A stretch of 64,000 nt of DNA from Clostridium sp. TW13. GTDB lineage: Bacteria > Bacillota > Clostridia > Clostridiales > Clostridiaceae. How positions within the stretch are numbered: the first letter of the stretch is position 1; the number at the start of each line of letters is the position of its first letter. Shown one piece after another: positions 8,787 through 58,705 of this stretch. The position numbers were made by a program, and so were the translations under genes. The stretch lies in the NCBI RefSeq assembly GCF_024345225.1, contig NZ_BROD01000001.1, positions 248,001 to 312,000 of the forward strand, written 5' to 3'. The notes beneath the pieces are model-generated. The model saw only the letters and a program-made list of their open reading frames with translations. It had not been told where the DNA came from and did not search any database.

Positions 8787-8802
8787 TTAAGAAAAGTTAA
8801 TA

Positions 8803-8916
8803 GATATCTTCAGGGCGGAGTGTAAGTCTCCACCGGTGGTAAAGCCCACGAGCAATTAATTGCATGATTCGGTGTAATTCCGAAGCCGACAGTATAGTCT
8901 GGATGAAAGAAGATGA
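8803..8916 (+). ncRNA. FMN riboswitch (RFN element) aptamer
   Basis: Conserved blocks of the RFN element are present in order: ATCTTCAGGGCGGAGTG, CTCCACCGGTGGTAAAGCCC, ACGAGC, GATTCGGTGTAATTCCG, AAGCCGACAGTATAGTC and GGATGAAAGAAGAT. FMN binding should favour the downstream terminator and switch off ribU. Confidence 0.95.
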
Positions 8917-8951
8917 TGAATAAGTATAATTTGTACAGTTATTCTGACGTA

Positions 8952-13143: not shown

Positions 13144-13200
13144 TTTTTTATTCTTTAGGATATTATAATAAAAATGAATTTGTGGATAACTTATAAAAAA
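13144..13200 (+). repeat. R1 intergenic repeat, full copy with DnaA-box consensus
   Basis: This copy has the core TTCTTTAGGATATTATAATA at 13151, then AATTTGTGGATAACTTATAA. It includes TGTGGATAA at 13181-13189, the exact complement of TTATCCACA. It matches the copy at 17742 over about 50 bases with few differences. Confidence 0.8.
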
Positions 13201-17703: not shown

Positions 17704-17745
17704 AAGTTGAGTTACAACGCATATTGCCAGTAACTCAATTTTTTT
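17704..17745 (+). terminator. Terminator after Fe-alcohol dehydrogenase
   Basis: GTTGAGTTAC pairs with GTAACTCAAT around a 14-base loop and is followed by a T-run. Confidence 0.85.
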
Positions 17746-17797
17746 GTTCTTTAGGATACTATAATAAAATCAAATTTGTGGATAACTTATAAAAAAA
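17742..17797 (+). repeat. R1 intergenic repeat, full copy with DnaA-box consensus
   Basis: Directly after the terminator T-run stands TTCTTTAGGATACTATAATA, then TTTGTGGATAACTTATAA. TGTGGATAA at 17777-17785 is at the same internal offset as in the copy at 13144. Confidence 0.8.
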
Positions 17798-27126: not shown

Positions 27127-27167
27127 AGGTTACATGACTAGGATGTTTAGTTATGTAACTTTTTTTA
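27127..27167 (+). terminator. Terminator after the two-helix membrane protein gene
   Basis: AGGTTACATGACTA pairs with TAGTTATGTAACTT, followed by TTTTTTT. Confidence 0.85.
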
Positions 27168-27190
27168 TTCTTAGGGATATTATAAACAGT
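27161..27190 (+). repeat. R1 intergenic repeat, partial copy
   Basis: The T-run of the terminator leads into ATTCTTAGGGATATTATAAA, the first part of the R1 core. The DnaA-box part is absent. Confidence 0.5.
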
Positions 27191-30627: not shown

Positions 30628-30676
30628 AAAAAACTGTTGCATAGTTTTATATAATAAATTGTGCAGCAGCTTTTTA
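30628..30676. terminator. Terminator between the protease and DUF1284 genes
   Basis: AAAAAACTGTTGCATA pairs with TGTGCAGCAG plus the following T-run, usable from both sides. Confidence 0.7.
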
Positions 30677-30705
30677 TTCTTTAGGAAATTATAATAAAGT
30701 CAGAT
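30671..30705 (+). repeat. R1 intergenic repeat, partial copy
   Basis: TTTTTATTCTTTAGGAAATT and then ATAATAAAGTCA follow the terminator T-run directly. The 3' half with the DnaA box is missing. Confidence 0.55.
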
Positions 30706-31220: not shown

Positions 31221-31328
31221 TATAGAACTATTCCACTTAAATGTTGGTAGAAAAGTGCTATATTTTGTCGGGAAAATGTCGAATTTTTGCAGCTTGGACA
31301 CCAACATTCTGATGGAACAGTTCCATAT
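31221..31328 (+). repeat. R3 hairpin repeat, copy A, with Spo0A-box core
   Basis: The outer arms TATAGAACTATTCCA and TGGAACAGTTCCATA have two mismatches. The inner stem AATGTTGGT / ACCAACATT is perfect. The loop contains TGTCGAA at 31277-31283 and a degenerate TGTCGGG at 31266. Confidence 0.75.
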
Positions 31329-47898: not shown

Positions 47899-47970
47899 CT
47901 TAGGTATCTAAAAGCAAATAGGTTTATATGCTAGCATATTTCGATTTTCTATTTATTTTCATATACCTTA
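47899..47970 (-). repeat. R2 hairpin repeat, copy 2, in the asd leader
   Basis: On the minus strand the arms are AAGGTATATGAAAATAAATA and TTGCTTTTAGATACCTAA, with the core AGCATATAAACCTA. It lies 39-110 bases before the asd start, in the sense orientation. Confidence 0.65.
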
Positions 47971-49027: not shown

Positions 49028-49135
49028 TATAGAAGTATTCCATCTAAATGTTGGTAGAATTTTGAAAGGAAATGTCGAAAACAATGTCGAAGTTTTGTAA
49101 GTTGTCCACCAACATTTTAATGGAATAGTTACATA
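49028..49135 (+). repeat. R3 hairpin repeat, copy B, with two Spo0A-box cores
   Basis: The outer arms TATAGAAGTATTCCA and TGGAATAGTTACATA have three mismatches. The inner stem AATGTTGGT / ACCAACATT is perfect. TGTCGAA occurs at 49073-49079 and 49085-49091. Elsewhere between 48945 and 49347 I see nothing coding. Confidence 0.75.
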
Positions 49136-53670: not shown

Positions 53671-53744
53671 ATTAGGTATCTGAAAGTAGATAGGTTTATA
53701 TGCTAGTATATTTGGACTAGTTACTTATTTCTAAATATCTTAAG
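53671..53744 (-). repeat. R2 hairpin repeat, copy 3, in the ABC-operon leader
   Basis: On the minus strand the arms are TTAAGATATTTAGAAATAAG and TCTACTTTCAGATACCTAAT, with the core AGCATATAAACCTA. It ends 15 bases before the ATPase start, in the sense orientation, next to the ribosome site. Confidence 0.65.
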
Positions 53745-54035: not shown

Positions 54036-54121
54036 TATAGAACTATTCCACTTAAATGTTGGTAGAAAAATGTCGAATTTTTGTAACTTGTCCACCAACA
54101 TTATTATGGAATAGTTCTATA
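54036..54121 (+). repeat. R3 hairpin repeat, copy C, best preserved
   Basis: The outer arms TATAGAACTATTCCA / TGGAATAGTTCTATA are perfectly complementary, as is the inner AATGTTGGT / ACCAACATT. The loop places TGTCGAA (54071-54077) between A- and T-runs that can pair. Confidence 0.8.
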
Positions 54122-54490
54122 TGGGTGATAGTTAGTATGTGAAACTTGCAATAAGTCTAGAGGATACTGTTAGGACTATATAGCTATTAGTTAATACCAG
54201 AATAATTGTTAGTTAATAAATATAGTCTTGGTGTTATATGGATGAAAGTTAATACCTTAATATTAAATGATAACTTCTTAGTTCTTTTAGTTTTAGGACT
54301 ATATACATGATAGTTAATAGATAGCAGCTAGCAATAATAGACTATTATCAAACTGCAGAATATTATTATAGCCGTATTTACTATAAAAAATAAATATTTG
54401 TAAAAGATAAATATAATAATATAATAGAATACATAAACTAAACATTCAGATTAATAAATTTAGAAAGAGGTGGGGTAATATTAGCTTATT
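54122..54490. other. Long AT-rich intergenic region with short recurring motifs
   Basis: No gene is visible. AGTTAATA occurs about four times and AGGACTATATA twice. Together with R2 and R3 this makes the 855-base gap between the ABC and CorC genes the repeat-richest in the window. Confidence 0.45.
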
Positions 54491-58374: not shown

Positions 58375-58426
58375 TAAGCATCTGAAAATAAATAGCATAT
58401 AAACCTATGTACTTTTAGATGCATTA
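58375..58426 (+). repeat. R2 hairpin repeat, copy 4, just before the metG T-box
   Basis: The arms AAGCATCTGAAAATAAATAG and TGTACTTTTAGATGCATTA flank the core CATATAAACCTA. It is the most compact copy. It ends where the T-box begins. Confidence 0.65.
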
Positions 58427-58672
58427 CAGAGAGTTCCTGTTGGTGAGATGGAATAAGGGATATTAAAGTGAAAATGGCCTTGGAGCAGTGCACCGAGATT
58501 GTAATGATTTAGGCTGCAACGGGTTCACCCGTTATAGTGATAGAGTATAATTACATCATTTGTAACGTACTTGAAGAGGTCTATATAGTGATATATAGAT
58601 AAAGTAGGATGGTAACACGAAGTTTAACTCTCGTTCCTAGGACATATGGTCTTAGGTTCGGGAGTTTTTTTA
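58427..58672 (+). ncRNA. T-box leader (methionine-type) of metG
   Basis: Stem I starts with AGAGAGTTCCTGTTGGTGAG, and a possible AUG specifier lies at 58504. The T-box core AGGATGGTAACACG is at 58606-58619, with TGGT for pairing to the uncharged tRNA end. The competing terminator is at 58627-58672. Uncharged tRNA-Met should permit readthrough. Confidence 0.88.
58627..58672 (+). terminator. T-box terminator hairpin
   Basis: AACTCTCG...CCTAGGAC pairs with GGTCTTAGG...CGGGAGTT, followed by TTTTTTT. Confidence 0.85.
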
Positions 58673-58705
58673 TTGTTTAGGATATTACAATAAAATCACA
58701 TATTT
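58667..58705 (+). repeat. R1 intergenic repeat, partial copy
   Basis: TTTTTATTGTTTAGGATATT and ACAATAAAATCA follow the T-box T-run directly, before the metG ribosome site. Confidence 0.55.

Follow-up and report, generated by a model that had tools for sequence, protein, structure and literature searches.

An intergenic hairpin family of Clostridium sp. TW13 resembling joined transposon ends and its link to degenerate IS1595-type genes

In the REPIN/RAYT system, inverted doublets that form hairpins are present in many intergenic copies, have strongly conserved arms, and lie next to a gene encoding their cognate, transposase-derived protein (PMC3116915). RAYTs are tyrosine transposases (Y1, IS200/IS605-type) and are described as single-copy and not self-mobile (PMC3116915). 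The hairpin family of Clostridium sp. TW13 described here, R3, is like REPIN/RAYT in each of these features of the hairpins. Unlike RAYTs, the R3-linked protein is of the IS1595 type, with a predicted integrase-like fold, and is not a tyrosine transposase. Unlike the single-copy RAYT gene, three R3 gene units are 94.7-97.2% identical and have an exact common left end. REPIN/RAYT is the closest known analogue of R3, but a protein of another class and a multicopy gene place R3 outside it.

The R3 system also resembles the IS1595 family (PMC8101967), with a zinc ribbon, a predicted RNase H-like fold and a profile match for two of the three proteins scanned; in relatives from genus g13, inverted ends flank the gene as in that family. 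It departs from the family in that the R3-linked proteins lack catalytic residues, no 8-bp duplication was seen, the ends start with TATAG, and the TW13 unit combines a full hairpin at its left side with a right side that lacks an inverted repeat. MITEs of bacteria, for example the Correia element (PMC10969869), are like R3 short, non-coding and intergenic, with inverted ends and many copies. In contrast to these, R3 is little more than its two arms and a 30-base loop, only one end is recognisable in its gene-bearing relative, and the R3-linked protein is degenerate. The literature searched held no description of a hairpin family paired with an IS1595-type protein, which is not proof that none exists. 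R3 is best explained, with a probability of about three in four, as a miniature mobile element composed of two inverted transposon ends of the form TATAG...AAATGTTGGT, derived from an IS1595 lineage.

Anatomy, distribution and ends of R3

The window, a stretch of 64,000 nucleotides of TW13 DNA, contains three R3 copies (Table 1). An earlier note on this DNA described three features common to them, namely outer arms of 15 bp, an inner stem of 9 bp and a loop with TGTCGAA, all of which are present. As it also stated, the copy at 49028 carries TGTCGAA twice, 12 bases apart, and pairing is perfect in the copy at 54036 whereas the outer arms of the other two contain mismatches. The stem-loop pattern was matched 0 times in 100 shuffles and is far beyond chance. 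The fold predicted for the 54036 copy has an energy of -31.7 kcal/mol, with z -7.6 (RNA parameters) and z -8.8 (DNA parameters) relative to shuffled controls. Past this copy, window 54107-54340 contains loosely repeated units GGACTATATA..GATAGTTAATA that by eye look like the R3 right end plus flank.

Table 1. Coordinates of R3 copies and their parts (window positions unless a contig is named)
Feature	Position	Strand	Remark
R3 copy, 86 bp	54036-54121	+	Perfectly paired; covariance model's best score, 119 bits
Outer left arm TATAGAACTATTCCA	54036-54050	+	Transposon-end-like
Inner stem, left side AATGTTGGT	54055-54063	+	Part common to transposon ends of another genus
Loop TGTCGAA	54071-54077	+	Spo0A-box core by sequence
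Loop CTTGTCC	54087-54093	+	Conserved equally to TGTCGAA; GGACAA when read from right end
Inner stem, right side ACCAACATT	54094-54102	+	
Outer right arm TGGAATAGTTCTATA	54107-54121	+	
R3 copy, 107 bp	31221-31327	+	Loop insertion, mismatched outer arms; TGTCGAA at 31277-31283
R3 copy, 108 bp	49028-49135	+	TGTCGAA at 49073 and 49085; mismatched outer arms
R3 copies with nested relative of the ATGAAACTCCTCTTCCTAAAGTCAGATGAGTACTCA family	L147:4001-4222; G000:C1:2762705-2762874, 67362-67519, 2926169		

A genome-wide search revealed that the family is much larger than the three copies first noticed. A DNA search together with a covariance model built from 32 copies placed R3 at 70 distinct places on the 4.55-Mb chromosome, whereas the search of the 89-kb second contig yielded none. 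Most copies are 86-87 bp long; longer ones (96-120 bp, with a maximum of 222 bp) contain loop duplications or inserts. Copies are concentrated at 0-0.9 and 2.27-3.47 Mb and are absent from 3.48-4.49 Mb. All 70 are intergenic, with none inside an ORF of more than 100 aa. The flanking genes are both forward at 24 copies, both reverse at 23, convergent at 14 and divergent at nine, and the orientation of R3 relative to them is random.

The earlier note had suggested a MITE, and the mobile nature implied by that suggestion is supported by the behavior of the ends, since identity among copies is about 0.9 up to the TATA ends and close to background beyond them. Mean pairwise identity among copies is 0.88-0.95 in arms and stems, 0.42-0.44 over the first 13 bases of the flanks and 0.31-0.34 farther out. 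Because identity drops there, the boundary of R3 can be placed at TATA, and the adjoining bases show a weak preference or remnant. R3 has several of the properties by which MITEs are recognised: it is short and non-coding, has terminal inverted repeats and is present in 70 copies. Variable direct repeats flanking the copies were not found, either at 2-12 bp or at 2-9 bp with offsets up to 40. No empty site was found in the congener, where synteny reaches approximately window 48941 and stops short of the R3 site. Two pairs of copies 3.4-4.3 kb apart, 3222679/3226933 and 444650/448001 (G000:C1), have alike flanks, near-identical on the right side in the former, and therefore resemble products of local duplication more than those of separate insertions.

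At the DNA level R3 was not found in 38 relatives, one congener included. Spread via phages or plasmids was rejected, because R3 had no match in plasmid and phage records and its exact pattern was absent from viral contigs. The pattern RTGTTGGTGGACAAGYTA gave 27 scattered single matches in viral contigs, a number that suggests chance, and a lone outer arm at 690386 was no better than the chance level of a reversed control pattern. Identity of R3 with an integron attC site was set aside, as R3 does not fit the GTT/AAC core pattern of such sites.

Several other features were observed. A second intergenic repeat family, ATGAAACTCCTCTTCCTAAAGTCAGATGAGTACTCA..., is modular, approximately 200-300 bp long and without a clear gene; it occurs about 30 times across the chromosome and the 89-kb contig together (L359, L360, L362 and L365, near 490-550). 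Four R3 copies are interrupted, all at one internal position, by a relative of this family. The 30-bp motif TTTTTTATTCTTTAGGATATTATAATAAAA has five intergenic copies in the window (13144-13173, 17740-17769, 27161-27190, 30670-30699 and 58666-58695) and is possibly a shared promoter or operator. The intergenic repeat TTAGGTATCTRAAAGYARATAGGTTTATATGCTAG is present in both orientations (window 47900-47970, 53672-53742 and 58393-58433), and an FMN riboswitch lies at window 8802-8918. A contig search with the CNNM/CBS protein neighbouring R3 matched distant species only.

The linked IS1595-type genes and proteins

Weak matches of the covariance model in other genera pointed to genus g13, which is rich in arms of the form TGTATTAAAAAAATGTTG and in which two inverted arms about 1.3 kb apart flank an IS1595-like gene. 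A search back with the g13 protein identified five homologues in TW13, plus one canonical IS1595 transposase whose ends differ from those of R3. R3 is present 110-122 bp upstream of all five IS1595-like genes, in the same orientation; the rough chance probability of R3 beside all five is 7e-14. The identity among the three similar gene units (R3 at 3185570, 2781427 and 3350390) extends over approximately 1,228 bp, begins at the first base of R3 and stops within the last codons of the gene, indicating that the stop codon is supplied by the flank. The flanks themselves are unrelated. These observations are direct evidence that a mobile unit of approximately 1.23 kb has R3 as its exact left boundary, and the duplication of this transposase unit further bears out the mobile nature of the hairpins.

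The TW13 gene units have no recognisable right inverted repeat. A degenerate repeat at the gene end is plausible by eye in one unit and at chance level in the other four, and was rejected. No direct repeat or target-site duplication was seen beside the three recent units. With a full R3 on the left and no right inverted repeat, the gene-bearing unit of TW13 is not a normal IS. Related g13 genes have TATAGTATGCAATTATTTGTTAAATAAATGTTGGTAAT at the left, matched at the right by an inverted end, and GGACAA follows slightly farther in; inverted TATAG...AAATGTTGGT ends flank these genes on both sides. The hairpins of g13 carry the same arm as the resident g13 genes, and an end of this kind, AAAAAAGTGTTGGTAAT, is also present in a gene unit of g39. 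The R3 sequence is AATGTTGGTAGA when followed from its left side and AATGTTGGTGGACAAG when followed from its right side. R3 is therefore likely a left and a right transposon end joined together. For at least two g13 units the flanks are alike between two species, and the g13 system thus appears long-lived.

The NCBIfam IS1595 profile scored 82.4, 82.5 and 64.2 bits against the three R3-linked proteins scanned, so that two are above the cut-off of 75 bits and the third is below it. Pfam DDE_Tnp_IS1595 had no match in the R3-linked proteins but does match the canonical resident copy. In an AlphaFold2 model of an R3-linked protein (mean pLDDT 75), residues 145-304 match the retroviral-integrase core (Z 11.4, 118 residues, 2.6 A; the PDB comparison was centred on residues 145-307), and the top families in Foldseek are the transposases Mos1 and ISCth4, with modest E-values. 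Catalytic residues were read from an alignment with ISCaje6, ISSag10, ISMsa1 and the canonical resident copy. In all five R3-linked proteins the second catalytic Asp is replaced by Ala and the third catalytic residue is lost; the first Asp is lost in one of the five. The R3-linked proteins thus retain a zinc ribbon and a predicted integrase-like fold but lack two or three catalytic residues. Other kinds of catalytic-residue loss are found in the congener and in genera g13, g37 and g39.

The reading frames of all five degenerate genes of TW13 are intact, and dN/dS is 0.16-0.24 in TW13 and 0.08-0.21 in g13, excluding comparisons that involve the 915056 gene. Purifying selection is acting on the degenerate IS1595-type genes. 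The five TW13 proteins and the protein of the congener form a clade with support of 0.997; the deep branches of the tree are unresolved, and catalytic-residue loss may therefore have arisen more than once. IS1595-like proteins without catalytic residues were also observed at L302, L303, L311, L313, L320, L341, L322-L337, L339 and L340. Such proteins appear to form a broader, unrecognised group in clostridial genera, most of the genomes concerned having several intact copies.

Constraint on the hairpin and alternative explanations

Among the 62 alignable R3 copies, conservation reaches 99.7% at the outer-arm bases TTCCA/TGGAA and 97.7% in the inner stem. In the loop, TGTCGAA has a mean conservation of 91.7%, the adjacent CTTGTCC 92.2% and the other bases 81.9%. 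The loose positions are mirrored between the arms, 8 and 10 on one side corresponding to 79 and 77 on the other. The same loose positions in both arms are the pattern expected from a protein that reads duplex DNA. In the 32-copy alignment, none of the 16 pairs is changed on both sides. Across the 62 alignable copies, pair 10/77 is Watson-Crick in 29, compared with 32 expected from independent columns. Because the two sides of the stem do not co-vary, recognition of each arm as duplex DNA by a protein is a better fit than RNA pairing. It is very improbable that R3 is an RNA hairpin at gene ends, serving as a terminator, mRNA stabiliser or RNase III substrate, despite the high stability of the predicted fold (z -7.6) and the location of 14 of the 70 copies between convergent genes. 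Besides the absence of compensatory changes, outer pairs break freely, yet invariant bases remain, and the orientation of R3 to genes is not fixed. R3 also has no Rfam match, and an RNA-level structure was rejected on this ground and on the lack of covariation.

The loop raises a different question, as TGTCGAA is the core of the Spo0A box, in which Spo0A contacts G2, C4 and G5 (PMC3485338). The copies could be Spo0A sites or decoys, in which TGTCGAA is functional and the hairpin spreads sites or titrates Spo0A. In 565 kb of the genome, a sample biased toward R3 neighbourhoods, 44 of 48 perfect TGTCGAA sites are within R3. Outside R3, the motif was seen four times where 14.7 were expected, making it about four-fold rarer and the second lowest of 180 7-mers of the same composition; this scarcity would fit avoidance of a bound site. 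Since most perfect sites are in R3 and the motif is rare elsewhere, a decoy or titration role is conceivable. However, the loop comparison proposed in the earlier note does not single out TGTCGAA: it exceeds the remaining loop, but CTTGTCC is equally conserved, and the exact motif is present in only 43 of 70 copies. The contact bases G2, C4 and G5 are kept in 97, 90 and 90% of copies and have no special protection. The downstream gene is on the same strand at 33 of the 70 copies and divergent at nine, with no orientation or promoter bias, and the motif is absent from three related hairpins of other genera (L197-L199). Hence the proposal that R3 provides Spo0A sites was not upheld, and the Spo0A explanation as a whole is improbable. 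Given what look like joined transposon ends upstream of every copy of the transposase-like gene, R3 is a family of mobile DNA, perhaps with a domesticated partner protein, and not a set of sporulation switches. A further alternative accepts this mobility but treats R3 as an ordinary MITE moved in trans by a complete transposase, absent or unrecognised in TW13, with the degenerate genes as dying passengers. Two inverted ends, non-coding sequence, many intergenic sites, and the composite copies at several sites, which carry an additional insert between their arms, are all consistent with it. Dying passengers, however, do not fit five intact reading frames of five, low dN/dS in the measured pairs, R3 at all five degenerate genes, or related degenerate proteins in several intact copies in g13, g37 and g39 and one in the congener. 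This alternative appears unlikely.

Proposed origin and significance of the R3 system

If R3 consists of joined transposon ends of an IS1595-derived lineage, the IS1595-type protein would recognise the arms as duplex DNA via its N-terminal zinc ribbon/helix-turn-helix region. R3 would have spread through an end-recognising transposase, which may have been an earlier active relative or one acting non-standardly, and the stems may now be maintained as protein sites. The R3 copy upstream of each gene is probably also autoregulatory and a likely operator. As for the movement of the recent units, the acting enzyme could be elsewhere or lost, or the chemistry could differ from what the alignment suggests. 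We tentatively propose, as a possibility of somewhat less than even odds, a partnership of the REPIN kind in which an IS1595-type transposase takes the place of the tyrosine one: a catalytically dead, domesticated protein, retained in several clostridial genera, would bind intergenic hairpin families with arms that differ between genera in step with the ends of the resident gene.

Were the protein a DNA-binding transposase remnant that still recognises dozens of dispersed hairpins, it would constitute a second, independent REP-type partnership. Such a partnership, if true, would be a route, open to testing, by which selfish DNA turns into a chromosome-wide regulator or nucleoid protein. It would also give a named origin to abundant clostridial intergenic hairpins that could pass for regulatory boxes.
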